In this document: positions 27,888 to 61,250 of the stretch, in pieces
Position numbering within the stretch: position 1 is the stretch's first letter
Layout of the letters: each line of letters starts with the position of its first letter
Source: Rhyzopertha dominica
Lineage: Eukaryota > Arthropoda > Insecta > Coleoptera > Bostrichidae
DNA: 64,000 nucleotides
Direction of reading: 5' to 3'
Assembly (NCBI GenBank): GCA_025024175.1
Contig: QCXZ01000137.1
Coordinates: 19,282,001 to 19,346,000, forward strand
Position numbers and translations under genes: made by a program
Notes under the pieces: model-generated
The model's database searches: none
Told to the model about the DNA's origin: nothing
The model's input: the letters and a program-made list of their open reading frames with translations, nothing else

Positions 27888-29600
27888 CGTCGAGGCGTCG
27901 ACTAACATTGTCGACATCGACACGTTGACAACATGTACATAATGTAGACAACGTCGACAATTAGGCTTTTTAAGATTGCGTCATCCAATATGGCGTCCAG
28001 GGGGCAAAAAGCGCACGCATGGGACGCGCCTGCGAAACCCTGGAAACGGACGCGTGGCTGATAGAGTTGGGTCCTTCATGACCAAGTCGTTCAAATTGAA
28101 TGACTTATGCCTTGATTTGGCTCACAGCTAATGAATCAGCGTCGTTCGTGCGTCGTACATGGTTAACAACTGACGACAGCACACGACGAGAACACATCAT
28201 GACAGCATATTTAAATGTTGTGGCGAGACAGGAGACTCCGCTGTCACTTTCAATTCCCGATCCATATGTCTTTAAGCAGGTCCAAACAACTCGGGAACTC
28301 GTTCTCAGTGATGATTCATGAACGACTTGAATGATCCGAATCTACGCGATTGATTGAACGATTTGAATTGAATCGAATGTCCCAGCTCTAGTGACTGACG
28401 TTGGCATTAAGTAATGGGGTTTCTATGACAGCACGCTAGAAGCTGTATCGTTATGACATTTGCCCCCTGGCAGTCGCTCCGAAAGTCACGTGTTCTAAAA
28501 AGCCTAAATTCAAAAGTTAGGTTATGTTTGTGTGGTCAGTTGTGTGTGTGTGTAGTCTGTTAATCTAGTGCTCTTGATTTCTTCTTTGAAGCCAGCCATG
28601 AAAGTGAAACTGTGTTACACATGACGAGCAGGAAATATATAGGAACTTTAAGCAGCTAAAATTTGAACAAATTAAAGTCAAGAGCAAACATTCGGCAAAA
28701 TGCAATTACTGCGGAAATGTAATTAAAATACGATGTTTCAGCGAGGCTATACTGCCATAGGCAAGAAACATGATAAACATTGTTATTTGTTTATTTACTG
28801 AGACAACATTTTAACTAAAACTTTTATACCAATTAATTATTGTTTAGTCATTGTTTACGTTGTCGACATTGTTCACATCATTAAGTTAGTCGAAGTCGAC
28901 GGTATTGTCGATGCCATTCAAGTCGTTTAAGAATCATTACTGAGAACGAGTTATACGGAGTTGTTAGACCTGCTTAAAGACAGCTGCAACATGTGTCCCG
29001 TAACAGTAGCCACCCAGCTAACGTCAACCATGACCGACGCACGAACGACGCTGATTCATCAGCTGTGAGCCGAATCAAACGAATCATGGCAAGAGTCATT
29101 CAATTTGAACGACTTGGTCATGAACGACCCAACTCTATCCGCTACGCGTCCGTTCCCACGGTTTCGTAGGCGCGTCTCATGCGCGCGCTGGGTGCCCCCT
29201 GGAAGCCATGTTGGATGACGTAATCTTAAAAAACCTAATTGTGCCTATTTTTAACAATCAAATGGACGCTGAATTTTTAAAAAGGCAAACAATGATAATT
29301 TGCGTTCATATTATTATAAATAAATTATTATTATTGCTTGTTTGGTTGTAGCTTTCTAGATCTGTAGGTGAGTCGTATGGAGATTATGCTATAGGTTATG
29401 TTCAGTTGAAGCAAAGCGGTAATTAGGCTTTTTAAGACTACGTCATCTAACATGGCTTCCAGGGAGCACCCAGCGCGCGCATGGAACGCGCCTACGAAAT
29501 CGTGGAAACGGACGCGTGCCTGATAGAGTTGGATCGTTCATGACCAAGTTGCTCAAATTGAACGACTCATGCCTTGATTCGTTTGATTTGGCTCACAACG
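27888..29600. mobile_element. Nested inverted MITE cluster
   Basis: Three copies of one repeat lie here: plus orientation from 27962, inverted at about 28912-29245, and a truncated plus copy at about 29421-29600. Shared blocks include TTAGGCTTTTTAAGA at the end, GATAGAGTTGG, TTCATGACCAAG and GAACGACTCATG-like runs. A GTCGAC-rich block at 27888-27960 has its reverse complement at about 28849-28912, so the whole region can fold on itself. The 73-codon frame at 28100 lies inside the repeat and is not a gene. Confidence 0.65.
27962..28513. mobile_element. MITE with TTAGGCTTTTTA termini
   Basis: The left end is TTAGGCTTTTTAAGATTGCG and the right end is the reverse complement of TTAGGCTTTTTAGAACACG. 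Both ends carry CCAGGGGGCAAA about 35-50 bp inside. About 550 bp with no coding frame. The target duplication is not clear; flanks are A/T only. Confidence 0.55.
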
Positions 29601-33187: not shown

Positions 33188-33196
33188 TATTTTGCA
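33188..33196. repeat. Left target-site duplication
   Basis: TATTTTGCA. It matches CATTTTGCA at 48750-48758 in 8 of 9 bases; the inner 8 bp are identical. Taken as 9 bp, the element between has exactly symmetric ends. Confidence 0.7.
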
Positions 33197-33362
33197 ACCG
33201 GTGTGAAAGCAGCAGCCAAAGATAGCAGCCAATTTTTCCGAAGTTACACGAATGGACATAGGCGTGCGTTACATACAACGTATGTATTAATATTAAACGC
33301 GCCTGCAACGCTAATAATTAGAATCATCACATTTATTTCAACGTCGTATTTGTTACGAAGAT
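33197..33362 (+). repeat. Outer end of left arm
   Basis: About 166 bp of non-tandem sequence at the extreme end, inverted copy at 48584-48749. It contains ACAACGTATGTATTAATATT and AGCGTTGC-type inverted motifs and leads directly into the first tandem unit. It is the likely recognition end for the transposase. Confidence 0.7.
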
Positions 33363-36160
33363 TATAAGTGACATCCCCTTCCGATGGGACCCAGGGAGCA
33401 AAACAACCCCGAAAATATTGTAAAAATTCATATCGCGGAAATCGCGCATACGAAATTATTCAAACTTACACATTTATTTTAGAACACCATATTCTACATA
33501 GTCTATGAGTGGCATCCCCTTCCAAATGGATCCAGGGGGTAAAACAACCCCGAAAACACTGAAAAAAATTATATCACGGAAACCGCGCATAGGAAATCAT
33601 TTAAACCTATAAATTTATTTTAGAACAACATATTCTACATAGTGTATGAGTGGCATCCCCTTCCGATGGGATCCAGGGGGTTAAACAACCCCGAAAACAC
33701 AGAAAAAATACATATCACGGAAACCGCGCATAGGAAATCATTTAAACTTAGATATTTATTTTAGAACATCATATTCTACATAGTGTATAAGTGACATCCC
33801 CTTCCGATGGGATCCAGGGGGTTAAACAACCCCGAAAACACTGAAAAAATACATATCACGGAAACCACGCATAGGAAATCATTTAAACTTAGATATTTAT
33901 TTTAGAACACCATATTCTACATAGTGTATGAGTGGCATCCCCTTCCGATGGGATCCAGGGGGTTAAACAACCCCGAAAACACAGAAAAAATACATATCAC
34001 GGAAACCGCGCATAGGAAATCATTTAAACTTAGATAATTATTTTAGAATACCATATTCTACATAGTGTATAAGTGACATCCCCTTCCGATGGGATCTAGG
34101 GGTTAAACAACCCCGAAAACAATGAAAAAATTCACATCACGGAAGCAGCGCATAGGAAATCATTTAAACTTATAAATTTATTTTAGAACACCATATTCTA
34201 CATAGTGTATGAGTGGCATCCCCTTCCGATGGGATCCAGGGGGTTAAACAACCCCGAAAACACTGAAAAAATACATATCACGGAAACCGCGCATAGGAAA
34301 TCATTTAAACTTAGATATTTATTTTAGAACATCATATTCTACATAGTGTATAAGTGACATCCCCTTCCGATGGGATCCAGGGGGTTAAACAACCCCGAAA
34401 ACAATGAAAAAATACATATCACGGAAACCGCGCATAGGAAATCATTTAAACTTAGATATTTATTTTAGAACATCATATTCTACATAGTGTATGAGTGGCA
34501 TCCCCTTCCGATGGGATCCAGGGGGTTAAACAACCCCGAAAACACAGAAAAAATACATATCACGGAAACCGCGCATAGGAAATCATTTAAACTTAGATAA
34601 TTATTTTAGAACACCATATTCTACATAGTGTATAAGTGACATCCCCTTCCGATGGGATCCAGGGGGTTAAACAACCCCGAAAACACTGAAAAAATTCACA
34701 TCACGGAAGCAGCGCATAGGAAATCATTTAAACTTATAAATTTATTTTAGAACACCATATTCTACATAGTGTATGAGTGGCATCCCCTTCCGATGGGATC
34801 CAGGGGGTTAAACAACCCCGAAAACACTGAAAAATACATATCACGGAAACCGCGCATAGGAAATCATTTAAACTTAGATATTTATTTTAGAACATCATAT
34901 TCTACATAGTGTATAAGTGACGTCCCCTTCCGATGGGATCCAGGGGGTTAAACAACCCCGAAAACACTGAAAAAATACATATCACGGAAACCGCGCATAG
35001 GAAATCATTTAAACTTAGANATTTATTTTAGAACACCATATTCTACATAGTGTATGAGTGGNATCCCCTTCCGATGGGATCCAGGGGGTTAAACAACCCC
35101 GAAAACACTGAAAAAATACATATCACGGAAACCGCGCATAGGAAATCATTTAAACTTAGATATTTATTTTAGAACACCATATTCTACATAGTGTATAAGT
35201 GACATCCCCTTCCGATGGGATCCAGGGGCTTAAACAACCCCGAAAACACTGAAAAAATACATATCACGGAAACCGCGCATAGGAAATCATTTAAACTTAG
35301 ATAATTATTTTAGAATACCATATTCTACATAGTGTATAAGTGACATCCCCTTCCGATGGGATCTAGGGGGTTAAACAACCCCGAAAACAATGAAAAAATT
35401 CACATCACGGAAGCAGCGCATAGGAAATCATTTAAACTTATAAATTTATTTTAGAACACCATATTCTACATAGTGTATGAGTGGCATCCCCTTCCGATGG
35501 GATCCAGGGGGTTAAACAACCCCGAAAACACTGAAAAAATACATATCACGGAAACCGCGCATAGGAAATCATTTAAACTTAGATATTTATTTTAGAACCT
35601 CATATTCTACATAGTGTATAAGAGACATCCCCTTCCGATGGGATCCAGGGTGTTAAACAACCCCGAAAACACTGAAAAAATACATATCACGGAAACCGCG
35701 CATAGGAAATCATTTAAACTTAGATATTTATTTTAGAACACCATATTCTACATAGTGTATGAGTGGCATCCCCTTCCGATGGGATCCAGGGGGTTAAACA
35801 ACCCCGAAAACACAGAAAAAATACATATCACGGAAACCGCGCATAGGAAATCATTTAAACTTAGATAATTATTTTAGAATACCATATTCTACATAGTGTA
35901 TAAGTGACATCCCCTTCCGATGGGATCTAGGGGGTTAAACAACCCCGAAAACACTAAAAAAATTCACATCACGGAAACAGCGCATAGGAAATCATTTAAA
36001 CTTATAAATTTATTTTAGAACACCATATTCTACATAGTGTATGAGTGGCATACCCTTCCGATGGGATCCAGGGGGCTAAACAACCCCGAAAGCATTGAAA
36101 AAAATCATATCACGGAAACCGCGCATAGGAAATCATTTAAACTTACACATTTATTTTAGA
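33363..36160 (+). repeat. Left tandem array, twenty 141-bp units
   Basis: Units start at 33370, 33511, 33652, 33793 and so on to 36047, spaced 141 bp except for two 140-bp units. Two unit types (ATAAGTGACATCC and ATGAGTGGCATCC) mostly alternate, giving a 282-bp higher-order period broken by one doubled GTGGC type (33511/33652) and one doubled GTGAC type (35201/35342). Each unit carries the self-complementary GGGGTTAAACAACCCC or a close variant. The outermost units are the most diverged. Confidence 0.95.
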
Positions 36161-36291
36161 GATTAAAAATCCACCTAGGGACGTTAAAAGTTGGCTGACA
36201 GATCCCAGCTTTCTCGAATTTTTTCTTGTGCCGTTGGCGCTGTTAATAATAACGGGTTTAGTTTTTTATAAACTGAAATATTATTGCCTAC

Positions 36292-38295
36292 CTAGTACTG
36301 ACGGCAAAGATCACAAATGCTGTTTACGTAGTGATCAGCGGGTTTTATTCCTTTGTCAATTTCGGGTTTTGTAAGGACACACTTTTTGTGTGCACTGCGC
36401 TTACATGCAGTGCACGTTAATACGTCATTTCCTGCCGAACGGCCACAAAACATACAAGCATTTCCCACCTCGCAAGAATGAGTCAAAAGCATTTTTTGTA
36501 TCTGCGATCGATATTTACGCATATCCTTGTAGGTTAAGAGGTTTTCTTCCTTGGCAATACAGCGGAAGAAGTAGATGACATATAATCCGCAATTATAACT
36601 GTCCTCTTGCCGTATGTGGTCAGGAGCAAGGTGTTGCCAGTTGTCAATGGCAAAGTTGGAATTATGCGTAATATTATGTAAATGCAGAAATTTACGAAAT
36701 TTTTTAAAATAGATCGAAGTTTTATATTGCGTGCTTCCTAATGGATCTAAAAAGATGAAGGTCTTATCTTCAAAATTTGCTACGGCTAAGCAAAAGTGAT
36801 TGTTGTTAATAATAATTGGCATTGCTATTTTGGTTTTATTTACTTTAGTGCCATCCATAAAATATTTTGTAAGTCGCGATGAATCACCGTTGTATATAAT
36901 TGTTGATCTTTCTGTACTTATGACTTGAAACACGTCGTTATGGTTATATAGCCTCAGTGATACATCGACAACTAAACTGCTCAACCAAGATGTTCCATTA
37001 AGACTAACGAAATCGTCAATAAGAATGTCCGGCATATTTGAATCTAAATGCTGATATCTGCAAACGATGTATCCTCTGTTGTTTGGAAAATTCTTGTAAT
37101 ATGTGGGATCATCCACTAGGCCGTTTTTTAGTAATACAATATGTTTTGTTGACGTCCATTTTATTTCTGCGGAGGAAAATGTTTCGCCAGGTAGGGCCAA
37201 TCGGGGAAGCATGTAAAAGTGATAGAACGTTTTTAACTTGTGGTATATGCTGTTCCAGAATTCTTCGTCCCGTTGAACTCTGACAATTTTAATGCCCTTA
37301 TAAGTGTATAACACGAAGTCGCACCAGAATTTGTTAGACACTTCTAAGCTACCTTGCACTTGGTAGTAGTACGGATGGGACTTCTTTAGATTCCCGGCAT
37401 CATCAAGGCAGTCAAATCGAATGTCGTTGGGATGCTTTGATTTGTATTTGAAAGGACATTTCACTTCTACAATGCCGTCTGTTCCTGTTACTACAGCATC
37501 TGGGGACGCCCCGAGGAAGAAATGTTTTCTATGAATATGTAAACCGGCCTTTCTGCATATTCTGCCCGTGAGGTTTTCATAGGCTGCAATAGCATTGTCT
37601 TCGTTATCTATACCGTGCTTAATGGAAGGTACATACGATATGTCTGTTGGTCGCAATACGTCTTTAAGGATTCTCTCAAATGCGGTTTGTGCTTTACATT
37701 TGCACACTCGCGCGAAGTTCGAGGCCGTCAAGCGTTTCTTGCGCTCCTCGACCCATATTCGTGAAAAACGTTGTTTACGCGTTGTCACCTCCAGTTTTCT
37801 AATTTCATCTTCCGTCATGTACAGTGAATCAAGGAACTGATTGCATTTTTCAGACAAGTCGTATGATTTGTTCTCTTTTGCTAACAAACCTTCTTCGGTA
37901 TTTCTACAGCACATTTTGCACATGAAACTTCCACTAAAAGATTTGTCGCAAGAGGTTTCGCAGTGTTGATGTATCCAACCGTCGCAAATGTCACACTGAA
38001 CCCAATCTACTGTGGTGTCCAAACGCGCATATCCACAATACAAACATCTAGGTTGGTCGTCTAAAATAATTTCAGATTTATTTTCTATTGCTGTCTTCAT
38101 GGAGTGTTTTTGCTCTTTTAGATAGCGGCCGGTAAAATGTGTGTCTCTTATCGTTCGATGTCTTTTCCAAGTTTCTTGTGACAGTCTTTCATCAGCATCA
38201 TCTATATGTAACTTCCTTTTATTTTTTGCAGTCAACCCGGACTTTCCGATATCCATTTTTGCTTCTTCGTATAAAGACAAAACGTACTCTCGCAA
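36292..38295 (-). CDS. PHD - YqaJ exonuclease - Ulp1 protease - PHD polyprotein (left copy)
   Basis: A 667-codon uninterrupted frame forming the C-terminal half of the element's protein. Residues 84-129 form a C4HC3 PHD finger (C84, C87, C101, C104, H109, C112, C126, C129; CDGWIHQHC core). About 178-345 is a YqaJ/lambda-exonuclease-type nuclease: TASNF (190-194), E232 in HGIDNE, SPD (264-266), EVKC (277-280) and Q312/Q314, the expected metal- and DNA-binding set. About 425-600 is a C48/Ulp1-type cysteine protease with H500, D517, Q563 and C569 (NCGLYV). Residues 614-664 are a second C4HC3 finger ending four residues from the stop. The Met start is only where this open segment begins; the frame continues the upstream transposase (REYVLSLYEEAK is shared with the other copy). 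Expected to act in the nucleus: DNA end processing plus removal of SUMO-like modifiers. Those roles are inferred from domains. Confidence 0.9.
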   Translation of the reverse strand: MREYVLSLYEEAKMDIGKSGLTAKNKRKLHIDDADERLSQETWKRHRTIRDTHFTGRYLKEQKHSMKTAIENKSEIILDDQPRCLYCGYARLDTTVDWVQCDICDGWIHQHCETSCDKSFSGSFMCKMCCRNTEEGLLAKENKSYDLSEKCNQFLDSLYMTEDEIRKLEVTTRKQRFSRIWVEERKKRLTASNFARVCKCKAQTAFERILKDVLRPTDISYVPSIKHGIDNEDNAIAAYENLTGRICRKAGLHIHRKHFFLGASPDAVVTGTDGIVEVKCPFKYKSKHPNDIRFDCLDDAGNLKKSHPYYYQVQGSLEVSNKFWCDFVLYTYKGIKIVRVQRDEEFWNSIYHKLKTFYHFYMLPRLALPGETFSSAEIKWTSTKHIVLLKNGLVDDPTYYKNFPNNRGYIVCRYQHLDSNMPDILIDDFVSLNGTSWLSSLVVDVSLRLYNHNDVFQVISTERSTIIYNGDSSRLTKYFMDGTKVNKTKIAMPIIINNNHFCLAVANFEDKTFIFLDPLGSTQYKTSIYFKKFRKFLHLHNITHNSNFAIDNWQHLAPDHIRQEDSYNCGLYVIYFFRCIAKEENLLTYKDMRKYRSQIQKMLLTHSCEVGNACMFCGRSAGNDVLTCTACKRSAHKKCVLTKPEIDKGIKPADHYVNSICDLCRQY

Positions 38296-38394
38296 TTTTC
38301 GTACAAAACGGGAACACTTTAAATATTTTCATTGCACAGTACATTCCTTTTGACGTTTCCGAAATAGTTCTCAACTACTGAATTGCTTATTCTT

Positions 38395-38736
38395 TCAACT
38401 GTGTGAGGTAAATGTAGACCAGTCCACAACGGGCAATATGGAACATATTTTTGTGAGGATAACTTCCAAAAATTCTGGATTGTAGTATTCGTTTATATTT
38501 TCCTTTTCCGCTTTTGCATTATTTTGAACCGACGATTCGTGTATTCTCTTAAATAGTTTGTAATACGGGCTGCTTTTATATAATGGACCATTCAAATCGT
38601 CATTATCATCTATTTCATCAACAGTTAATTCTTCATGAGAATACGTTTCTCCGTCGCAGCAATAAAAGTAGCAAACTAAAATGAGCTTTCTTTGCGTTTG
38701 TGTCGTACATTTCAGAAGATAACAAAACACATACAT
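38395..38736 (-). pseudogene. Transposase segment, left copy (between CxH and catalytic Glu)
   Basis: 113 codons. Contains an acidic stretch (DEIDDNDDLNG) and matches the plus-strand copy at about 43280-43550. The matching sequence in the other arm continues into VENYFGNVKR, the presumed catalytic Glu region. Here the frame is lost by small indels on both sides, so the catalytic Glu segment is out of frame in this copy. Confidence 0.75.
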
Positions 38737-38760
38737 CTCTAAACCAGTTTTCTAGAGATT

Positions 38761-39126
38761 CTATGCCTTTTCATTTGTAATTGCCGAAGCAATCAATTCC
38801 GTAAATAATTTATGCTGTAATGAATTCTTTGAAAAGCGACTTATGTCATTTATGACCATTTTCATAAAATGAGCACAGCACAAGTGAATCGTTATAAACG
38901 TAGTGCTTCTAACATAGACGTCTTTCAATGTCATCTGATAAGAGTAGTTCAAATAATCAAGCAGGGTCATACGGTTGAAAGCTTTACATACTGCATGTAA
39001 GCTGGCAAAACTAAAGTCTGTGATTACACTGCTGAATAACGGCCATTTGTCATTTTCCTTCGCAAAGGTTCTGAAGTCGTGTAGTATTTTGAAGATTGCT
39101 TTGGAATAGTGTACGGAAGAAATCAT
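38761..39126 (-). pseudogene. Transposase catalytic core segment, left copy (second Asp and CxH)
   Basis: 121 codons beginning MISSVHYSKA. It carries VITDFSFASLHAV (second catalytic Asp) and HLCCAHFMK, the Cys-x-His motif inserted between the second Asp and the Glu in MULE, hAT, P and KDZ-type transposases. It differs from the right copy by short frame slips near residue 21 (AKEN versus CEEN). Part of one long protein, not a separate gene. Confidence 0.8.
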
Positions 39127-39476
39127 GTAAATATTGGGAAAACGCGCCCAGCCCGGGATAGTCTTATTACCGCAGAATAGAGGTACACTCTTTTTGAACC
39201 TGAGGGATTTCTTACAATTCCACCAGTAGCATCAAAGTTGTATAGGTAACCATTCTTCTTTTGCTGACTGTTTTTCTAACACATGCAGTTGTTGAATGCT
39301 GTACATTTTAATATTGAAGGGAAAAGCGACTTCTTTTATGTACTCTTCGTGACGTTTTGCATTTCAATTATATCCAAAATATCATTCTTGTCTCTGTCCA
39401 ATATAGATGTCGCTTCAGCCTTAATTCGCCGCAGGGTGGAATCGGACTTTATATCTTGTAGATTATCCTATTTTAA
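39127..39476 (-). pseudogene. Transposase first-Asp segment, left copy, frame broken
   Basis: Matches the right-arm sequence at about 42470-42821 that encodes PIHFDATGGIVR. In this copy an extra base near 39240 (TACAACTTTGATG versus TACACTTTGATG on the coding strand) and others break the frame, leaving no open segment of useful length. Confidence 0.7.
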
Positions 39477-40049
39477 CTAAGTTCTTATCAGAAGAAAGTA
39501 TTGTTCTCTTTTGTATTGAGACGGCTTAACATGATAAAGTTTTTTTCGAATTAAGCACCTTTCTATTCCCTTAACGTAAGTTGTGAGCTTTTGTTTATGG
39601 CAATAGTTTAACGAAGTGCTAAACACCTTTACCCTTCTGTTTTTGTCTATCACGATCTTAAATTTTTTACAGGAATGGTTGTTGTGTATGCAACTGGCAA
39701 ATAATTTTATATTTTTTTCTTTTTTGAGATACTTTACAAATTTGAACGCCAACTGGCATGTATTATTGACAAATTTCACTATACGGTGCCTTATATAAAA
39801 TGGATAGTGCTTAGAATTCAATTTGCTACCGTCATAAATTACTCGCCACATTTTATCATCGATACGAAATTCTCCTTCGAAAACAGTGCAATCTTTGTAA
39901 TTTAAAACCACGTTTTCTCTCAAACTCTCATTTTTTGAGTTTATAGGTAAAACTGGAGTACCTACATTTGCATCAGATAAATCCAACATTTCAGTTGGTA
40001 TGTCGAAATCTGCTGTTGTCACATCTGCATGAGATGTGCTTTCATCCAA
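39477..40049 (-). pseudogene. Transposase N-terminal zinc-binding segment, left copy
   Basis: 190 codons. Includes CTVFEGEFRIDDKMWRV and, further on, NNTCQLAFKF followed by CIHNNHSCKKF, a Cys/His cluster that could be a zinc-binding DNA-recognition domain of the WRKY-GCM1/FLYWCH kind seen in Mutator-like transposases. In this stretch the left copy holds the frame where the right copy breaks (42050, 42118, 42190), which shows that the breaks are not shared. Confidence 0.7.
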
Positions 40050-40127
40050 TACCTTTTTTTTCTAACTTAGGAATTGGCGATGGTACATCTACTTCTATTT
40101 GACCATCAGACTTCGAGAAATCTTCTT

Positions 40128-40487
40128 TTAAAGGAGTAGACGTATACACACCATGGAATAGTTTTCTTTTGCAAGATAATTTAGGAGATTATATACAGAT
40201 AATTCTTCATTAATTTTTACAGGCGTTTGAATCTCCAAAGCGCTGTTATAATTCTTTGAATTATCGCTTTCATTATCCCGTGCGTTTATATGAGTATCAC
40301 CACAGAATAATTTATCTTCTTCGAAGATTTTGTGAGAATTAATTTCCGCACGCCAAAAGCGGTATAGTTGATATCTATTTTTCAATGTATTCTTTTTACG
40401 GAGCAGTGCGCACATTTTACCGAATAAAGATTGCTTTGACCTGTGGGATTTATCTAAATTCGCGACATCTGTGCCTAGCATATCCAA
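40128..40487 (-). pseudogene. Transposase N-terminal region, left copy, second segment
   Basis: 119 codons, low-complexity and hydrophilic toward the end (INARDNESDNSKNYNS), corresponding to about 41450-41810 on the plus strand. Frame lost at both ends by indels. No domain recognised. Confidence 0.7.
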
Positions 40488-40531
40488 AGCAACTCTAAAA
40501 CTCTGCCACTGTCACTGGTTTTACATGTGCA

Positions 40532-40759
40532 TCATCTCCTAGAAAACAGTCGACTGAAAACCTTTTCCTTACATATTACCCTATACACTACACTAGGGTA
40601 CTTATATTTCGTTTTTGGAAAGTAAGACGACACCCTTTTGAAAAAATCATCCTTGGGTTTAAGTTGCAATAATTGTTGGTACGTACATATTGGCAGTTCC
40701 CTTTTCACAACATTAAATATCTCTTGCAAATGATTGTCTTTACCTTTTTTGAAAACCAT
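40532..40759 (-). pseudogene. Transposase N-terminus, left copy
   Basis: 75 codons from the presumed initiator ATG at 40759 (MVFKKGKDNHLQEIFNVV). It aligns with the start of the right copy at 41185. Lys/Arg-rich, no recognised domain. A T-run one base longer than in the other arm (TCGACTGTTTTC versus TCGACTGTTTC) ends the frame. Confidence 0.75.
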
Positions 40760-41073
40760 TTTAACAAGCTGAACCTGTAATATGCAGGATACACCAAATC
40801 AAATGCTTAACAATACACTACTATATTATTTACACTACCCTACTAAACCAAAACAGTAATAGTAACTACTATAATTTGTAACGCTTTATTCATACAACTG
40901 AACAGTGCTCTCAAACAAAGAAAAGTAACACGAATTCTAAGTATAAATAATTATTTATAACAAATAAGGAATAGATCTCAATAGCAACGCCGTCACAAAC
41001 GGTTATATAAACCTAAATATGTACAAATAAACGGTACCTCTGGTGAAAGTGAACAAACTACTAATCACCAGGT
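40760..41073 (-). promoter_or_regulatory. Central region upstream of the transposase gene
   Basis: About 314 bp upstream of the left ATG, present only in this arm because the right contig starts 11 bp before its ATG. GGTTATATAAACC at 41001-41013 includes a TATA-like core readable on either strand. CTGCATATTACAG just upstream of the ATG could be a 5'-UTR splice acceptor. CTGGTGA (41040-41046) and TCACCAG (41065-41071) form an inverted pair immediately beside the gap. Promoter function is inferred. Confidence 0.4.
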
Positions 41074-41173
41074 NNNNNNNNNNNNNNNNNNNNNNNNNNN
41101 NNNNNNNNNNNNNNNNNNNNNNNNNNNNNNNNNNNNNNNNNNNNNNNNNNNNNNNNNNNNNNNNNNNNNNNNN
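41074..41173. other. Assembly gap, 100 N
   Basis: Exactly 100 Ns, a conventional length for a gap of unknown size. It separates the two inverted halves of the palindromic element. Confidence 0.98.
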
Positions 41174-41184
41174 AGCTTGTTAAA

Positions 41185-42090
41185 ATGGTTTTTCAAAAAA
41201 AGGTAAGAGACAATCATTTGCAAGAGATATTTAATGTTGTGAAAAGGAACTGCCAATATGTACGTTACCAACAATTATTGCAACTTAAACCCAAGGATGA
41301 TTTTTTCAAAAGGGTGTCGTCTTACTTTCCAAAAACGAAATATAAGTACCCTAGTGTAGTGTATAGGGTAATATGTAAGGAAAAGGTTTTCAGTCGACTG
41401 TTTCTAGGAGATGATGCACATGTAAAACCAGTGACAGTGGCAGAGTTTAGAGTTGCTTTGGATATGCTAGGCACAGATGTCGCGAATTTAGATAAATCCC
41501 ACAGGTCAAAGCAATCTTTATTCGTAAAATGTGCGCACTGCTCCGTAAAAAGAATACAATTGAAAAATAGATATCAACTATACCGCTTTTGGCGTGCGGA
41601 AATTAATTCTCACAAAATCTTCGAAGAAGATAAATTATTCTGTGGTGATACTCATATAAACGCACGGGATAATGAAAGCGATAATTCAAAGAATTATAAC
41701 AGCGCTTTGGAGATTCAAACGCCTGTAAAAATTAATGAAGAATTATCTGTATATAAATCTCCTAAATTATCTTGCAAAAGAAAACTATTCCATGGTGTGT
41801 ATACGTCTACTCCTTTAAAAGAAGATTTCTCGAAGTCTGATGGTCAAATAGAAGTAGATGTACCATCGCCAATTCCTAAGTTAGAAAAAAAGGTATTGGA
41901 TGAAAGCACATCTCATGCAGATGTGACAACAGCAGATTTCGACATACCAACTGAAATGTTGGATTTATCTGATGCAAATGTAGGTACTCCAGTTTTACCT
42001 ATAAACTCAAAAAATGAGAGTTTGAGAGAAAACGTGGTTTTAAATTACAAAAGATTGCACTGTTTTCGAAGGAGAATTTCGTATCGATGA
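41185..42090 (+). pseudogene. Transposase N-terminus, right copy
   Basis: 301 codons from ATG 41185 (MVFQKKVRDNHLQEIFNVV). It joins what are three separate segments in the left copy and ends where an extra A (AATTACAAAAGATTG versus AATTACAAAGATTG) shifts the frame near 42050. N-terminal part basic, middle acidic and Ser-rich (41700-41990). No domain recognised in this part. Confidence 0.8.
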
Positions 42091-42246
42091 TAAAATGTGG
42101 CGAGTAATTTATGACGGTAGCAATTGAATTCTAAGCACTATCCATTTTATATAAGGCACCGTATAGTGAAATTTGTCAATAATACATGCCAGTTGGGCGT
42201 TCAAAATTTGTAAAGTATCTCAAAAAAGAAAAAAATATAAAATTAT

Positions 42247-42825
42247 TTGCCAAGTTGCATACACAACAACCATTCCTGTAAAAAATTTAAGATCGTGATA
42301 GACAAAAACAGAAGGGTAAAGGTGTTTAGCACTTCGTTAAACTATTGCCATAAACAAAAGCTCACAACTTACGTTAAGGGAATAGAAAGGTGCTTAATTC
42401 GAAAAAAACTTTATCATGTTAAGCCGTCTCAATACAAAAGAAGAACAATACTTTCTTCTGATAAGAACTTAGTTAAAATAGGAAATCTACAAGATATAAA
42501 GTCCGATTCCACCCTGCGGCGAATTAAGGCTGAAGCGACATCTATATTGGACAGAGACAAGAATGATATTTTGGATATAATTGAAATGCAAAACGTTCAC
42601 GAAGAGTACATAAAAGAAGTCGCTTTTCCCTTCAATATTAAAATGTACAGCATTCAACAACTGCATGTGTTAGAAAAACAGTCAGCAAAAGAAGAATGGT
42701 TACCTATACACTTTGATGCTACTGGTGGAATTGTAAGAAATCCCTCAGGTTCAAAAAGAGTGTACCTCTATTCTGCGGTAATAAGACTATCCCGGGCTGG
42801 GCGCGTTTCCCAATATTTGACATGA
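42247..42825 (+). pseudogene. Transposase segment, right copy (zinc-binding motif and first Asp)
   Basis: 192 codons. Begins in the Cys/His cluster (CIHNNHSCKKF) and ends with PIHFDATGGIVR (D157, presumed first catalytic Asp) and YLYSAVIRL. The frame ends where one base is missing in GCGTTTCCC; the left arm has GCGTTTTCCC at the same place, which would continue as GRVFPIFDMISSV. Confidence 0.8.
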
Positions 42826-43427
42826 TTTCTTCCGTACACTATTCCAAAGCAATCTTCAAAATACTACACGACTTCAGAACCTTTTGCGAAGAAAATGACA
42901 AATGGCCGTTATTCAGCAGTGTAATCACAGACTTTAGTTTTGCCAGCTTACATGCAGTATGTAAAGCTTTCAACCGTATGACCCTGCTTGATTATTTGAA
43001 CTACTCTTATCAGATGACATTGAAAGACGTCTATGTTAGAAGCACTACGTTTATAACGATTCACTTGTGCTGTGCTCATTTTATGAAAATGGTCATAAAT
43101 GACATAAGTCGCTTTTCAAAGAATTCATTACAGCATAAATTATTTACGGAATTGATTGCTTCGGCAATTACAATGAAAAGCATAGAATCTCTAGAAAACT
43201 GGTTTAGAGATGTATGTGTTTTGTTATCTTCTGAAATGTACGACACAAACGCAAAGAAAGCTCATTTTAGTTTGCTACTTTTATGCTGCGACGGAGAAAC
43301 GTATTCTCATGAAGAATTAACTGTTGATGAAATAGATGATAATGACGATTTGAATGGTCCATTATATAAAAGCAGCCCGTATTACAAACTATTTAAGAGA
43401 ATACACGAATCGTCGGTTTCAAAATAA
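42822..43427 (+). pseudogene. Transposase catalytic core, right copy (second Asp and CxH)
   Basis: 201 codons. D37 in VITDFSFASLH is the presumed second catalytic Asp and C84-x-H86 in LCCAHFMK is the inserted motif. The segment continues with LENWFRDVCVLL and an acidic stretch. The overlap with the previous segment is a frame slip, not true gene overlap. Confidence 0.85.
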
Positions 43428-43713
43428 TGCAAAAGCGGAAAAGGAAAATATAAACGAATACTACAATCCAGAATTTTTGGAAGTTATCCTCACAAAATAT
43501 GTTCCATATTGCCCGTTGTGGACTGGTCTACATTTACCTCACACAGTTGAAAGAATAAGCAATTCAGTAGTTGAGAACTATTTCGGAAACGTCAAAAGGA
43601 ATGTACTGTGCAATGAAAAATATTTAAAGTGTTCCCGTTTTGTACGAAAATTGCGAGAGTACGTTTTGTCTTTATACGAAGAAGCAAAATGGATATCGGA
43701 AAGTCCGGGTTGA
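43354..43713 (+). pseudogene. Transposase C-terminal core, right copy (catalytic Glu)
   Basis: 119 codons; the real match to the protein starts around residue 22. ERISNSVVENYFGNVKRN contains E74, the presumed third catalytic residue. The frame ends in AKWISES because an A-run is one base shorter here (CAAAATGG) than in the left arm (CAAAAATGG, giving AKMDIG), which would read straight on into the PHD-exonuclease part. Confidence 0.8.
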
Positions 43714-44252
43714 CTGCAAAAAATAAAAGGAAGTTACATATAGATGATGCTGATGAAAGACTGTCACAAGAAACTTGGAAAAGACATCGAACGATAAGAG
43801 ACACACATTTTACCGGCCGCTATCTAAAAGAGCAAAAACACTCCATGAAGACAGCAATAGAAAATAAATCTGAAATTATTTTAGACGACCAACCTAGATG
43901 TTTGTATTGTGGATATGCGCGTTTGGACACCACAGTAGATTGGGTTCAGTGTGACATTTGCGACGGTTGGATACATCAACACTGCGAAACCTCTTGCGAC
44001 AAATCTTTTAGTGGAAGTTTCATGTGCAAAATGTGCTGTAGAAATACCGAAGAAGGTTTGTTAGCAAAAGAGAACAAATCATACGACTTGTCTGAAAAAT
44101 GCAATCAGTTCCTTGATTCACTGTACATGACGGAAGATGAAATTAGAAAACTGGAGGTGACAACGCGTAAACAACGTTTTTTCACGAATATGGGTCGAGG
44201 AGCGCAAGAAACGCTTGACGGCCTCGAACTTCGCGCGAGTGTGCAAATGTAA
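43690..44252 (+). pseudogene. PHD finger and linker, right copy
   Basis: Open frame running on from MDIGKSG. It contains the complete C4HC3 PHD finger (CLYCG, then CDICDGWIHQHC, then CKMCC). The frame shifts near 44180, where a T-run has six bases against five in the left arm. Confidence 0.85.
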
Positions 44253-45654
44253 AGCACAAACCGCATTTGAGAGAATCCTTAAAGACGTATTGCGACCAAC
44301 AGACATATCGTATGTACCTTCCATTAAGCACGGTATAGATAACGAAGACAATGCTATTGCAGCCTATGAAAACCTCACGGGCAGAATATGCAGAAAGGCC
44401 GGTTTACATATTCATAGAAAACATTTCTTCCTCGGGGCGTCCCCAGATGCTGTAGTAACAGGAACAGACGGCATTGTAGAAGTGAAATGTCCTTTCAAAT
44501 ACAAATCAAAGCATCCCAACGACATTCGATTTGACTGCCTTGATGATGCCGGGAATCTAAAGAAGTCCCATCCGTACTACTACCAAGTGCAAGGTAGCTT
44601 AGAAGTGTCTAACAAATTCTGGTGCGACTTCGTGTTATACACTTATAAGGGCATTAAAATTGTCAGAGTTCAACGGGACGAAGAATTCTGGAACAGCATA
44701 TACCACAAGTTAAAAACGTTCTATCACTTTTACATGCTTCCCCGATTGGCCCTACCTGGCGAAACATTTTCCTCCGCAGAAATAAAATGGACGTCAACAA
44801 AACATATTGTATTACTAAAAAACGGCCTAGTGGATGATCCCACATATTACAAGAATTTTCCAAACAACAGAGGATACATCGTTTGCAGATATCAGCATTT
44901 AGATTCAAATATGCCGGACATTCTTATTGACGATTTCGTTAGTCTTAATGGAACATCTTGGTTGAGCAGTTTAGTTGTCGATGTATCACTGAGGCTATAT
45001 AACCATAACGACGTGTTTCAAGTCATAAGTACAGAAAGATCAACAATTATATACAACGGTGATTCATCGCGACTTACAAAATATTTTATGGATGGCACTA
45101 AAGTAAATAAAACCAAAATAGCAATGCCAATTATTATTAACAACAATCACTTTTGCTTAGCCGTAGCAAATTTTGAAGATAAGACCTTCATCTTTTTAGA
45201 TCCATTAGGAAGCACGCAATATAAAACTTCGATCTATTTTAAAAAATTTCGTAAATTTCTGCATTTACATAATATTACGCATAATTCCAACTTTGCCATT
45301 GACAACTGGCAACACCTTGCTCCTGACCACATACGGCAAGAGGACAGTTATAATTGCGGATTATATGTCATCTACTTCTTCCGCTGTATTGCCAAGGAAG
45401 AAAACCTCTTAACCTACAAGGATATGCGTAAATATCGATCGCAGATACAAAAAATGCTTTTGACTCATTCTTGCGAGGTGGGAAATGCTTGTATGTTTTG
45501 TGGCCGTTCGGCAGGAAATGACGTATTAACGTGCACTGCATGTAAGCGCAGTGCACACAAAAAGTGTGTCCTTACAAAACCCGAAATTGACAAAGGAATA
45601 AAACCCGCTGATCACTACGTAAACAGCATTTGTGATCTTTGCCGTCAGTACTAG
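44215..45654 (+). CDS. YqaJ exonuclease - Ulp1 protease - PHD, right copy
   Basis: 479 codons in frame to the stop, and the encoded sequence matches residues 190-667 of the left copy from TASNF onward. All nuclease landmarks (HGIDNE, SPD, EVKC, YQVQG), the protease His/Asp/Gln/Cys set and the C-terminal C4HC3 finger are present. The apparent Met start results from the frameshift upstream and is unlikely to be a natural start. Stop to array distance and sequence are identical to the left arm. Confidence 0.88.
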   Translation: MTASNFARVCKCKAQTAFERILKDVLRPTDISYVPSIKHGIDNEDNAIAAYENLTGRICRKAGLHIHRKHFFLGASPDAVVTGTDGIVEVKCPFKYKSKHPNDIRFDCLDDAGNLKKSHPYYYQVQGSLEVSNKFWCDFVLYTYKGIKIVRVQRDEEFWNSIYHKLKTFYHFYMLPRLALPGETFSSAEIKWTSTKHIVLLKNGLVDDPTYYKNFPNNRGYIVCRYQHLDSNMPDILIDDFVSLNGTSWLSSLVVDVSLRLYNHNDVFQVISTERSTIIYNGDSSRLTKYFMDGTKVNKTKIAMPIIINNNHFCLAVANFEDKTFIFLDPLGSTQYKTSIYFKKFRKFLHLHNITHNSNFAIDNWQHLAPDHIRQEDSYNCGLYVIYFFRCIAKEENLLTYKDMRKYRSQIQKMLLTHSCEVGNACMFCGRSAGNDVLTCTACKRSAHKKCVLTKPEIDKGIKPADHYVNSICDLCRQY

Positions 45655-45796
45655 GTAGGCAATAATATTTCAGTTTATAAAAAACTAAACCCGTTATTAT
45701 TAACAGCGCCAACGGCACAAGAAAAAATTCGAGAAAGCTGGGATCTGTCAGCCAACTTTTAACGTCCCTAGGTGGATTTTTAATCTCTAAAATAAA
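45655..45796 (+). terminator. 3' UTR and first poly(A) signal, right copy
   Basis: About 130 bp between the stop codon and the array. The first AATAAA lies at 45791-45796, at the inner edge of the tandem array; many units repeat AATAAA in the gene's sense. The mirror signal for the left copy is at about 36150-36155. Inferred from motif and position only. Confidence 0.45.
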
Positions 45797-48583
45797 TGTG
45801 TAAGTTTAAATGATTTCCTATGCGCGGTTTCCGTGATATGATTTTTTTCAATGCTTTCGGGGTTGTTTAGCCCCCTGGATCCCATCGGAAGGGTATGCCA
45901 CTCATACACTATGTAGAATATGGTGTTCTAAAATAAATTTATAAGTTTAAATGATTTCCTATGCGCTGTTTCCGTGATGTGAATTTTTTTAGTGTTTTCG
46001 GGGTTGTTTAACCCCCTAGATCCCATCGGAAGGGGATGTCACTTATACACTATGTAGAATATGGTATTCTAAAATAATTATCTAAGTTTAAATGATTTCC
46101 TATGCGCGGTTTCCGTGATATGTATTTTTTCTGTGTTTTCGGGGTTGTTTAACCCCCTGGATCCCATCGGAAGGGGATGCCACTCATACACTATGTAGAA
46201 TATGGTGTTCTAAAATAAATATCTAAGTTTAAATGATTTCCTATGCGCGGTTTCCGTGATATGTATTTTTTCAGTGTTTTCGGGGTTGTTTAACACCCTG
46301 GATCCCATCGGAAGGGGATGTCTCTTATACACTATGTAGAATATGAGGTTCTAAAATAAATATCTAAGTTTAAATGATTTCCTATGCGCGGTTTCCGTGA
46401 TATGTATTTTTTCAGTGTTTTCGGGGTTGTTTAACCCCCTGGATCCCATCGGAAGGGGATGCCACTCATACACTATGTAGAATATGGTGTTCTAAAATAA
46501 ATTTATAAGTTTAAATGATTTCCTATGCGCTGCTTCCGTGATGTGAATTTTTTCATTGTTTTCGGGGTTGTTTAACCCCCTAGATCCCATCGGAAGGGGA
46601 TGTCACTTATACACTATGTAGAATATGGTATTCTAAAATAATTATCTAAGTTTAAATGATTTCCTATGCGCGGTTTCCGTGATATGTATTTTTTCAGTGT
46701 TTTCGGGGTTGTTTAAGCCCCTGGATCCCATCGGAAGGGGATGTCACTTATACACTATGTAGAATATGGTGTTCTAAAATAAATATCTAAGTTTAAATGA
46801 TTTCCTATGCGCGGTTTCCGTGATATGTATTTTTTCTGTGTTTTCGGGGTTGTTTAACCCCCTGGATCCCATCGGAAGGGGATACCACTCATACACTATG
46901 TAGAATATGGTGTTCTAAAATAAATATCTAAGTTTAAATGATTTCCTATGCGCGGTTTCCGTGATATGTATTTTTTCAGTGTTTTCGGGGTTGTTTAACC
47001 CCCTGGATCCCATCGGAAGGGGACGTCACTTATACACTATGTAGAATATGATGTTCTAAAATAAATATCTAAGTTTAAATGATTTCCTATGCGCGGTTTC
47101 CGTGATATGTATTTTTCAGTGTTTTCGGGGTTGTTTAACCCCCTGGATCCCATCGGAAGGGGATGCCACTCATACACTATGTAGAATATGGTGTTCTAAA
47201 ATAAATTTATAAGTTTAAATGATTTCCTATGCGCTGCTTCCGTGATGTGAATTTTTTCAGTGTTTTCGGGGTTGTTTAACCCCCTGGATCCCATCGGAAG
47301 GGGATGTCACTTATACACTATGTAGAATATGGTGTTCTAAAATAATTATCTAAGTTTAAATGATTTCCTATGCGCGGTTTCCGTGATATGTATTTTTTCT
47401 GTGTTTTCGGGGTTGTTTAACCCCCTGGATCCCATCGGAAGGGGATGCCACTCATACACTATGTAGAATATGATGTTCTAAAATAAATATCTAAGTTTAA
47501 ATGATTTCCTATGCGCGGTTTCCGTGATATGTATTTTTTCATTGTTTTCGGGGTTGTTTAACCCCCTGGATCCCATCGGAAGGGGATGTCACTTATACAC
47601 TATGTAGAATATGATGTTCTAAAATAAATATCTAAGTTTAAATGATTTCCTATGCGCGGTTTCCGTGATATGTATTTTTTCAGTGTTTTCGGGGTTGTTT
47701 AACCCCCTGGATCCCATCGGAAGGGGATGCCACTCATACACTATGTAGAATATGGTGTTCTAAAATAAATTTATAAGTTTAAATGATTTCCTATGCGCTG
47801 CTTCCGTGATGTGAATTTTTTCATTGTTTTCGGGGTTGTTTAACCCCTAGATCCCATCGGAAGGGGATGTCACTTATACACTATGTAGAATATGGTATTC
47901 TAAAATAATTATCTAAGTTTAAATGATTTCCTATGCGCGGTTTCCGTGATATGTATTTTTTCTGTGTTTTCGGGGTTGTTTAACCCCCTGGATCCCATCG
48001 GAAGGGGATGCCACTCATACACTATGTAGAATATGGTGTTCTAAAATAAATATCTAAGTTTAAATGATTTCCTATGCGTGGTTTCCGTGATATGTATTTT
48101 TTCAGTGTTTTCGGGGTTGTTTAACCCCCTGGATCCCATCGGAAGGGGATGTCACTTATACACTATGTAGAATATGATGTTCTAAAATAAATATCTAAGT
48201 TTAAATGATTTCCTATGCGCGGTTTCCGTGATATGTATTTTTTCTGTGTTTTCGGGGTTGTTTAACCCCCTGGATCCCATCGGAAGGGGATGCCACTCAT
48301 ACACTATGTAGAATATGTTGTTCTAAAATAAATTTATAGGTTTAAATGATTTCCTATGCGCGGTTTCCGTGATATAATTTTTTTCAGTGTTTTCGGGGTT
48401 GTTTTACCCCCTGGATCCATTTGGAAGGGGATGCCACTCATAGACTATGTAGAATATGGTGTTCTAAAATAAATGTGTAAGTTTGAATAATTTCGTATGC
48501 GCGATTTCCGCGATATGAATTTTTACAATATTTTCGGGGTTGTTTTGCTCCCTGGGTCCCATCGGAAGGGGATGTCACTTATA
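45786..48583 (-). repeat. Right tandem array, twenty 141-bp units
   Basis: Inverted counterpart of the left array with the same number of units, the same order of the two unit types, the same two phase breaks and the same rare variants (TGTCTC in the fourth unit from the inside, GACGTC in the ninth). Total length equals the left arm to the base. Confidence 0.95.
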
Positions 48584-48749
48584 ATCTTCGTAACAAATAC
48601 GACGTTGAAATAAATGTGATGATTCTAATTATTAGCGTTGCAGGCGCGTTTAATATTAATACATACGTTGTATGTAACGCACGCCTATGTCCATTCGTGT
48701 AACTTCGGAAAAATTGGCTGCTATCTTTGGCTGCTGCTTTCACACCGGT
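48584..48749 (-). repeat. Outer end of right arm
   Basis: Inverted copy of 33197-33362, ending CACACCGGT. Confidence 0.75.
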
Positions 48750-48758
48750 CATTTTGCA
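48750..48758. repeat. Right target-site duplication
   Basis: CATTTTGCA; see the left copy at 33188-33196. Confidence 0.7.
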
Positions 48759-54902: not shown

Positions 54903-56234
54903 CGAGGCATGTTTTTTAAGTAAGTACCGTTTTGAAATTAAAAAAAAGACGTGCAAAGATATCGCAATAATTTTATCTTACATGAAAGCCTGTACCTTAA
55001 TCTACTTTTCTACACAATTTCCGTGAATATTGAGGCACTTGTCATAACGTGGCACCAGTTTTTGAATACCCTCCTCATAAAATTCTGCCGCCTGACTTGT
55101 TAACCACTGTATCACAAATGTTTCGACTTCGTTATCGTCTTGAAGACGCTGACCACCCAGGTGTTTCTTCAAGTGCAGGAACACATGGTAGTCGCTAGAC
55201 ACCAGATCAGGGCTGAATGAAGGATGATCTAGAGTTTCCCATTTAAAAGATTTGATGAGATCTTTGGTCCGATTAACCACATGTGGACGGGCATTGTCAT
55301 GCAGCAANACGATACCCTTACTCAACTTGCAACGTCTTTTGTTCTGGATTGCACGACGCAGATTGTTCAATGTCTTACAATAAGACGCTGCATTGATTGT
55401 CTCATTACGAGGCAGAAACTCCACTAGCAATACTCCTTTTCTGTCCCAAAAAACTGTGCACATGATTTTCCGGGCAGAAATTGTTTGCTTAAACTTCACT
55501 TTTTTGGGTGATGATGAATGTCGCCATTCCATGGATTGTTGTTTCGATTCTGGTGTGACGTAGGCCACCCATGTTTCGTCACCAGCAACAATTTGGTCTA
55601 AAAAATCTTCACCTTCATTGTGGTACCGCTCAAGGAAAGTCAATGCACTGCCTAAACGTTGGGTTTTGTGCAAATCCGTCAACATTTTCGGAACCCAACG
55701 TGAACACAATTTCCGGTAATTCAAGTTCTCTGTCACAATGCGATACAAAACACTACAAGAATATTGAGGAAAGCAGTCGCACAATGATGAAATTGTAAAG
55801 CGTCTGTTTTCTCTCACCTTTTCGTTCACTTTCTGCACCAAATCTTCATTAACGACCGAAGGACGCCCACTCCGTTCTTCATCATGCACATTNATGCNGC
55901 CATCTTTAAATGCTTTCACCCATTTCCTTACCATACCATCACTCATAATGTTTTGTCCGTAAACTTCACAGANCTCACGATGAATATCGATCGGTTTTAC
56001 GCCTTTAGCACTAAGAAATCGTATAACAGCCCGTACTTCACAATCGGCGGGACTCACGATTGTCCGAGGCATCTTAAACACTCAGTAAGCAACGTATACA
56101 ATGAAGAATCAAACCGTAATGGCGTCAGTGCGTAGACAAGAGATGTAGGTAACCAGCGCGCATGCGCGGAACGCCGACCGTAGCGCTGCGGCGGCGGAAT
56201 CGCAAAACGGTACTTACTTNAAAAACATGCCTCG
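54903..56234 (-). mobile_element. Full-length mariner element
   Basis: 1,332 bp between TA dinucleotides (54901-54902 and 56235-56236), the mariner target duplication. The ends CGAGGCATGTTTTTTAAG and its inverted partner extend over about 31 bp (to 54933 and from 56204), identical except for one N. One transposase frame fills the minus strand. The single Ns inside suggest a consensus over several near-identical genomic copies. Confidence 0.93.
55002..56081 (-). CDS. Mariner transposase
   Basis: A 359-codon frame with no stop, a little over the usual mariner length of about 345. The second ATG (56072, MPRTIV) is a plausible start. The N-terminal half carries two helix-turn-helix regions with RSGRPS between them; WVPKML (129-134) stands where mariners have WVPHEL. 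The catalytic triad is D168 (GDETW), D262 (HDNARPH) and D297 (SSDYH), with 34 residues between the second and third, the D,D34D signature. The usual YSPDLAPSDYH is FSPDLVSSDYH. Codons at residues 37, 62, 63 and 258 contain N. It would cut and rejoin the element at TA sites in the nucleus. The frame looks functional; activity is unproven. Confidence 0.93.
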   Translation of the reverse strand: MFKMPRTIVSPADCEVRAVIRFLSAKGVKPIDIHREXCEVYGQNIMSDGMVRKWVKAFKDGXXNVHDEERSGRPSVVNEDLVQKVNEKVRENRRFTISSLCDCFPQYSCSVLYRIVTENLNYRKLCSRWVPKMLTDLHKTQRLGSALTFLERYHNEGEDFLDQIVAGDETWVAYVTPESKQQSMEWRHSSSPKKVKFKQTISARKIMCTVFWDRKGVLLVEFLPRNETINAASYCKTLNNLRRAIQNKRRCKLSKGIXLLHDNARPHVVNRTKDLIKSFKWETLDHPSFSPDLVSSDYHVFLHLKKHLGGQRLQDDNEVETFVIQWLTSQAAEFYEEGIQKLVPRYDKCLNIHGNCVEK

Positions 56235-59540: not shown

Positions 59541-60207
59541 ACACTATTTACTAGAAATATTTGATTAAATATAAATTACAATTTCATGTCATTAAACATT
59601 ATTCTATTTTGTCTTCACAACCTGAGGTTGCCAAATTTACTTCTTTGTTATACAGGGTGTTCACGCTAACAGTCTAAAATAGCTAACTTTTTTATTTAAA
59701 ATAGTATAATAGTGGTTTAAAAAGGAATATATAAATTGAACATCATCTGTTAAAGATATTGACTACAAATTTGTTATTTTAAATAGAAGGACCCCACTTT
59801 TAATAGCGCATTCGATTCGCCATTTTGAGATATTTCAGGTGATATGATTTCTGTTCATGAAACGGTTTACAACAGCTAACTTTTTTATTTAAAATCGTTC
59901 AACTGGTTTTGTTTGTATACACCATCAAATTATTCTCAAAAAATCAAGAAACTTTTCCATTTAAACCACTATTCTACGATTTTAAGTGAAAAAGATAACT
60001 ATTGTAGACTGTTTCGTGGACACCAGTCATATTACCTGAGATATCTCAAAAGCAAATGACTATAGGGTATCTTAATACTTTTTTATTTAATTTGATGTGG
60101 TGAATAGAATGCGCTATAAAAAGTTGAATACTTTCAACAGTGTACTNTTTGTGAAACAAATTGAAATCATNATTCCAAACAGTTTGTAAACGAACTTGTT
60201 TTTGTTT

Positions 60208-60347
60208 GTGCTTGGTTTCATACTATTTATCGAATAATTGAACGATTATTTCGAACGGATGAATGGTCACTGTCAGTTTTGTATCTTTCTTGATAACTTG
60301 GTCGAATGATCGTCGAAGAATTCGATAAATAGTGTGAAACAAAGCAC
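60208..60347. repeat. Inverted repeat pair with 40-50-bp spacer
   Basis: GTGCTTGGTTTCATACTATT at 60208 is matched in reverse complement by the segment ending ATAGTGTGAAACAAAGCAC at 60347. The arms are about 47 bp with several mismatches, including shared TATCGAAT and GAACGAT-like blocks. Possible small MITE. Confidence 0.5.
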
Positions 60348-60373
60348 TATATAGCAAGATATGCTATATAGTG
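60345..60373. other. Perfect 12-bp hairpin
   Basis: CACTATATAGCA and TGCTATATAGTG pair perfectly around a 5-base loop, at the outer edge of the preceding inverted repeat. Confidence 0.5.
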
Positions 60374-60433
60374 ATTAATATCTATTTGGTGAAAAACTGT
60401 AAACTGCAAGTCCAAGTTCAAAACACGGTATTT

Positions 60434-60455
60434 TCGTGGTGTAAGTACACCACGA
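60434..60455. other. Perfect 9-bp hairpin
   Basis: TCGTGGTGT and ACACCACGA pair around the loop AAGT. Confidence 0.45.
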
Positions 60456-60468
60456 TGCTATAAAAGAA

Positions 60469-60735
60469 ATGCTTTTCCACAAGTCCTTGAAGGGTCAGTG
60501 CTATAGGACAACAAATCAAGTTTTTAGTCTTTGTAATGGCTGTAATTTCGATAGCTTCCAAAATTGCATTTTACAGTTCAATGTAACAGCCAAAGCACAA
60601 AAAATGACTAAAATAGCTCAAAAGCCAGTAATTCCATTTTGGCATTCGTTCGTATTTGTAGGTTTTCTTAATATTTACATATTATTTTGCATTGCATTAT
60701 ATTGGACCTGTACGGGGTATTTACTTATAGTTTAG
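60469..60735 (+). other. Unassigned open frame
   Basis: 88 codons ending in a hydrophobic C-terminus (FVFVGFLNIYILFCIALYW) within the repeat-rich region. No recognised family; probably chance. Confidence 0.12.
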
Positions 60736-61250
60736 TTGTTAAAATGAGCTTGTCTTCAATAGCTGGAATATATATTTTATATAACCGCTGATCTATAAAT
60801 TAATGAGTTTTCTGGTAATGCAGTAGCCTCGCAAGTACCATATATAGTAATTGTACCCGTAATTTTGTGTTAAATTCTTCGAAATTGCGACCTTTTTCCA
60901 TAGAACAGTACAACCAAGTTTATTTTCTTAAAAATTCTGCCAATATTGATATTGATTGAAATGTGGCCTATATACAGGGTGTTCACGCTAACAGTTTACA
61001 ATAGCTATCTTTTTTATTTGAAATCGTAGAAAGTTTCTTGATTTTTCGAGAAGAATCTGTTTACAAAAAACAATTGAACATCATCTGTCAAAGATATTGA
61101 CTACAACTTTGTTATTTTAAATAGAACGACCCTTCTTTTTATGGCGCATTCGATTCACATCAAATTAAACAAAAAAGTATTAAGATACCAACACCCTATA
61201 GTCATTTGTTTTTGAGATATCTCAGGTAATATGATTGGTGTTTACCATGA

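Follow-up and report, generated by a model that had tools for sequence, protein, structure and literature searches.

In a 64,000-nucleotide stretch of the genome of the beetle Rhyzopertha dominica (GCA_025024175.1, contig QCXZ01000137.1, positions 19,282,001 to 19,346,000; hereafter the window), we found an intronless gene that encodes, in order, a DDE transposase, a PHD finger, a YqaJ (lambda-type) exonuclease, an Ulp1 protease and a second PHD finger. With a probability of roughly 75%, we interpret this gene as part of a young Rehavkus-type (MULE-related) DNA transposon, in which a single open reading frame (ORF) encodes a multifunctional transposase of about 1490 amino acids (aa). The separate components of this protein have precedents, and what appears to be new is the combination of YqaJ and Ulp1 on a Rehavkus-type backbone.

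The gene and its encoded protein

The gene extends on the forward strand from an ATG at 41185 to the end of the stop codon at 45654, which confirms the boundaries given in a preliminary description made from the letters of the window. That description had also proposed a single intronless polypeptide with the above domain order over 4.47 kilobases (kb), and two lines of evidence bear this out. First, reading through the gene yields FDATGG, ITDFSF, CCAHF and VENYFG, the first PHD finger, TASNF, SPD, EVKC and QVQ, the protease motifs and the second PHD finger, in that order. Second, although the window's own frame is broken in both of its gene copies, an intact protein, P0121 (1487 aa), is found on four contigs of a separate data set. 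Using exact matches, P0121 maps to the right-arm copy as 12 segments (1470/1487 residues) and to the mirror copy in the left arm (40759-36292, minus strand) as 15 segments (1479/1487 residues), and the arms combined cover all 1487 residues exactly. The mapping is collinear, and intron-like jumps are absent. Because the differences between the arms are concentrated in their inner 3 kb, beside contig ends that face a gap of 100 Ns, the frame breaks look like consensus errors close to two contig ends. The gene copies and the domains are as follows (residues are those of P0121):

41185..45654, +: right-arm gene copy, the subject of this analysis; reading frame split into 12 segments, with P0121 as the intact protein
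36292..40759, -: mirror copy of the multidomain transposase gene in the left arm; reading frame interrupted
38328-36295, -: open frame in the left-arm copy, transposase C-terminus to second PHD finger, 678 aa
42187..42360, +: putative zinc-binding domain of four strands; C356, C363 and H387 invariant, strands visible in the P0138 model
42703..43590, +: DDE RNase H-like catalytic core; D509, D581, C627-x2-H630 and E795
43899..44036, +: first PHD finger, C4HC3; alignment and Pfam matches of relatives, window copy below cut-off
44191..44613, +: YqaJ / lambda-type exonuclease; D1086, E1097 and K1099
44806..45471, +: Ulp1/SENP-type cysteine protease; H1320, D1337, Q1383 and C1389
45490..45642, +: second PHD finger, C4HC3; Pfam and alignment

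The preliminary description had named Pfam searches as a check on these domains. On the window's 678-aa frame, Pfam recovered YqaJ (E=2.1e-17), Peptidase_C48 (E=1.7e-10) and the second PHD finger (E=5.9e-6), but the window's own first PHD finger scores 15.8 bits, which is under the Pfam cut-off of 24. By whole-protein score, the first finger is above the cut-off in five relatives (P0124, P0127, P0135, P0136 and P0137), counted as those in which the best PHD stretch is the first finger, and all eight of its zinc ligands are invariant in 7/7 aligned proteins.

Pfam, PDB sequences and folds also uphold the earlier identification of the exonuclease and the protease, whose catalytic residues are conserved. 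The YqaJ domain has the D...E-x-K active site and the fold of lambda-type exonucleases. The protease domain has the fold and the His-Asp-Gln-Cys site of the Ulp1/SENP (C48) enzymes, with the His, Gln and Cys invariant in 7/7 proteins and the Asp replaced by Asn in P0126. For the model of the relative P0138, every one of the best 50 Foldseek matches is a protease with the Ulp1 fold (clan CE type).

The transposase part contains the D, D, C-x2-H and E of a MULE/IS256-like RNase H-like core, with the fold taken from a relative's model of middling confidence. In a second-look structural aligner, the DDE part of the P0138 model resembles ISCth4 and P-element transposases. In contrast to MULE and IS256-type transposases, the DDE part matched no Pfam transposase family, MULE included, in searches of 6 + 7 proteins; PF20700, the canonical Mutator domain, gave no match in the 6 proteins (E up to 1) or in the 7 (E up to 0.5). 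Comparison of 13 family members with 15 PF20700 proteins (20 tried, 52 found) by hhalign detected no profile similarity (probability 0.6%, with only a C-x2-H stretch in common), and canonical Mutator kinship of the DDE domain was rejected. The putative zinc-binding domain at 42187..42360, which we take to be WRKY/FLYWCH-like, is perhaps end-binding.

The palindrome in the assembly and its boundaries

The gene sits inside a 15.55-kb inverted repeat (33197-48749) with these features, those without a strand being marked by a dot:

33188..33196,.: left target-site duplication TATTTTGCA, matching the right copy at 8/9 positions
33197..33362,.: left terminal inverted repeat (TIR) tip, 166 base pairs (bp), starting ACCGGTGTG; inverted match of 100% identity to 48749-48584
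33363..36160, -: left 141-bp tandem array, 19.9 copies
41074..41173,.: run of 100 Ns, assembly gap at the palindrome centre
45786..48583, +: right 141-bp tandem array, 19.9 copies
48584..48749,.: right TIR tip, 166 bp
48750..48758,.: right target-site duplication CATTTTGCA

The left arm (33197-40770) is the reverse complement of 48749-41174 with 99.54% identity over 7591 columns, and the differences comprise 3 mismatch columns and 32 single-base gaps, nearly all within the inner 3 kb; the outer 4.6 kb differ by one substitution and two Ns. From each outer end inward, the tip is followed by the array, 131 bp and the stop codon of the gene. The chance of an 8-bp match at the boundaries is approximately 2.6e-4 with nine offsets allowed, and the flanks are unrelated to each other apart from the 9-bp repeat, so a single insertion most likely comprises both arms. 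A search for a binding motif common to the tip and the array unit returned short words alone (best E 0.15).

We weighed two explanations of the palindrome, which bear on the palindrome only and not on the protein. There is an even chance that it is an assembly artefact and that the element in fact carries a single gene flanked by two ends with arrays. In that case, a contig would have run through the 3-kb inverted end repeat to the wrong side, which would double the gene, and the scaffolder would have joined the contigs with 100 Ns. The near-identity of the arms, the restriction of nearly all differences to the inner 3 kb, and a central gap of exactly 100 Ns are consistent with this route, as is the structure of Rehavkus-1_TC, a 9.5-kb element of Tribolium castaneum that carries arrays of a 164-bp satellite, mostly of five and eight monomers, in its inverted termini (PMC10218199). 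However, a simple read foldback is excluded because, beyond the 9-bp repeat, the sequences on either side of the element bear no relation to each other.

A real palindrome, to which we give somewhat short of even odds, would be an inverted duplication produced by gap repair: the two broken ends would each have copied the same template half via the shared inverted repeats and then been joined off-centre. Both flanks, the duplication, the tips and the arrays are intact, the left arm reaches approximately 303 bp further inward than the right arm, and the element encodes a resecting-type nuclease, all of which would agree with such an origin, but the junction falls in the N gap and is unreadable. 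The target-site duplication places both sides in one insertion and is compatible with either explanation.

Elsewhere in the window, a Mariner-type transposase ORF of 359 aa, identified by eye, lies at 55002-56081 on the minus strand and is open save for four ambiguous-base codons. A cluster of direct and inverted repeats of 160-220 bp, 86-90% alike, occupies 27957-29597, where the GC content of the window peaks (0.415), and looks like nested small transposons. Another small group of repeats in both orientations (80-87% alike) lies at 59649-61241. Isolated single Ns, e.g., at 22055-22219, 35020 and 35062, occur in the otherwise complete sequence and are probably ambiguous polishing calls.

Family assignment and relatives

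Rehavkus is treated as a MULE outgroup with arthropod and annelid hosts, and its traits are a 9-bp duplication, TIRs of 26-400 bp, one ORF, a PHD finger, and a minisatellite before the 3' TIR (PMC6446971). The element described here has two C4HC3 PHD fingers; a single ORF in the intact P0121, with the window's copies frame-broken; and a minisatellite of 141 bp x 19.9 located 131 bp past the stop codon. The 166-bp tip outside the arrays falls within the TIR range, with the whole inverted stretch being far longer, and the 9-bp duplication is 8/9 identical, with an exact 8-bp reading also fitting. Because the duplication is imperfect and the likeness to named Rehavkus proteins is by description only, we refer to the element as Rehavkus-type rather than as a proven member.

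Zisupton (KDZ) elements carry an Ulp1 domain, and we know of no Zisupton with a PHD finger or a minisatellite. The preliminary description had used Zisupton as the nearest comparator, and the alternative duplication ATTTTGCA, an exact 8-bp direct repeat that is one base out of register, would agree with the 8-bp duplications made by Zisupton, which is likewise a DNA transposon (PMC12730594). However, Rehavkus is the better fit for the PHD finger, for the minisatellite array that adjoins the terminal repeat, and for the duplication read symmetrically as 9 bp beside identical tips, and the terms ulp1, yqaj, phd and c48 each have 0 occurrences in the accessible main text of PMC12730594. The comparison with Zisupton was therefore not sustained, and membership in that family is improbable. 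Conserved active sites are also what a domesticated host gene would display, but the terminal repeats, the duplication and the two near-identical inverted copies make that reading very unlikely for the element.

The same domain order is present in the alignment of nine full-length proteins (P0121-P0127, P0135 and P0136, with P0121 counted), and the search tables place the other eight at 38-42% identity. This count excludes P0128 (Ceutorhynchus assimilis, 1192 aa), which in the alignment has no first PHD finger and an incomplete DDE core, as well as P0137, which stops inside YqaJ, and P0001 (693 aa), which comprises the C-terminal half only. The family members with a named source, P0128 and P0136 (Phaedon cochleariae), are both from beetles. 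In P0136, the first PHD finger is present in two tandem copies, and Pfam detects three PHD stretches.

The listing of P0001 as a C-terminal half could suggest that two adjacent genes, for a transposase and a YqaJ-Ulp1 protein, were misread as one, but P0001 begins within the transposase, just ahead of the motif with the third catalytic residue, which indicates that no separate gene starts there, and the nine proteins are full-length single ORFs, so we regard this reading as very unlikely. These single ORFs do not bear out a refuting condition named in the preliminary description, intact copies elsewhere with two separate genes. Taken together, the Zisupton, host-gene and two-gene readings were rejected on the evidence counted against each.

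Three relatives are without YqaJ: P0138 has the order DDE-PHD-Ulp1-PHD, P0139 contains an additional Ulp1-PHD-like unit, and the modules of P0140 are arranged in another way. At the level of predicted domains, these relatives indicate that the architecture is modular. A DDE tree of 13 rows, which omits P0128 and P0001 (core absent) and scores P0137 as YqaJ-bearing, did not recover whether YqaJ was gained or lost; the three YqaJ-less rows sit on long branches and do not cluster together. In a YqaJ tree of 132 rows (140 proteins taken, 8 dropped because the domain match was too short), 11 family YqaJ domains form one clade with support of 100/96, and five neighbouring short proteins join this clade at only 89/84. 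YqaJ occurs together with the Mutator-type domain PF20700 in at least 52 proteins among 120 of 137 matches listed. The gene models of the beetle proteins P0002, P0004 and P0008 have PF09402 and PF03020, which are presumably LEM/MAN1-type domains, alongside PF20700 and YqaJ, and these models are either transposon-host gene fusions or annotation errors.

A possible mechanism and comparison with known systems

In the reading that we favour, the transposase would be bound to the element ends through its N-terminal zinc-binding domain and, perhaps, through the arrays, and the DDE core would cut and join at 9-bp-staggered sites, with the cut-and-paste movement presumed from the class of transposase. 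By analogy with known enzymes, the PHD fingers may tether the complex to histone marks on donor or target chromatin, and the Ulp1 domain may deSUMOylate host factors for repair or silencing at the break. Ulp1 and OTU domains have been suggested to activate repair factors during or after transposition (PMC2836005). The preliminary description had put forward the processing of hairpins or palindromes and an anti-SUMO action as roles, which are likewise conjectural. The YqaJ domain would resect 5' ends at the excised donor site, such that repair copies a homologous template and the donor copy is restored. Because the two ends share an inverted repeat of approximately 3 kb, repair could copy one half from both sides and produce a palindrome of the kind seen in the window. 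A more speculative reading, which we consider unlikely, is that the transposase carries its own repair kit, combining cutting, resection by a phage-type 5' exonuclease, SUMO removal and chromatin reading, and that excision is thereby coupled to copying of a homologous template; the array-bearing inverted ends would then sometimes yield whole-element palindromes such as the 15.55-kb one.

Unrelated transposons repeatedly carry accessory nucleases and Ulp1 proteases, whose role in transposition is unsettled; in this element, both enzymes are domains of the transposase itself and retain conserved active sites. The nuclease is present in some relatives and absent from others, so matched versions can be compared to ask how a transposon benefits from having an end-resecting nuclease and a SUMO protease of its own. 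The element also fills in a superfamily that a 2019 paper calls described in Repbase only (PMC6446971).

The preliminary description had known of no well-described family with this full domain order. Our searches of the literature, judged by titles and abstract openings, turned up no report of YqaJ, Ulp1, PHD and transposase in combination, and Repbase may contain an entry with these domains; in the accessible text of a 2026 paper on arthropod MULEs, PHD, Ulp and YqaJ have 0 occurrences (PMC13359780). However, the element is less isolated than that statement implied, given ISL2EU, KolobokE, the Ulp1 of Mutator and Ginger1, and the proteins that pair YqaJ with PF20700. ISL2EU (PHIS) elements also encode a YqaJ exonuclease alongside a DDE transposase (PMC4482050; PMC9179366), but the nuclease is in a separate ORF and the transposase is of another type. 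In KolobokE, a lambda-exonuclease-like nuclease follows the transposase (PMC9587614), which is of the Kolobok type, and its accessible description mentions neither PHD nor Ulp1. Ulp1 is found in Mutator and Ginger1, at the C-terminus as in this element, and Ginger1-9_HM also has a PHD finger (PMC2836005); in contrast, the Ginger1 core is of the Gypsy-integrase type, and YqaJ is unmentioned in the accessible description. The foldback elements Tetris and Galileo share long inverted termini of tandem repeats, with Tetris duplications of 8-10 bp, whereas complete Tetris copies have no conserved ORF and Galileo belongs to the P superfamily (PMC4079207). Relative to Rehavkus, the array unit differs (141 bp here and 164 bp in Rehavkus-1_TC), and YqaJ and Ulp1 are unmentioned in the accessible descriptions, with "ulp1" and words beginning with nuclease or peptidase each having 0 occurrences in that text of PMC6446971. 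The element shares with Rehavkus one ORF, a PHD finger, a minisatellite adjoining the terminal repeat, a TIR length within the range, and, as in Rehavkus-1_TC, arrays within inverted termini, and its duplication can be read as one of the 9-bp type.

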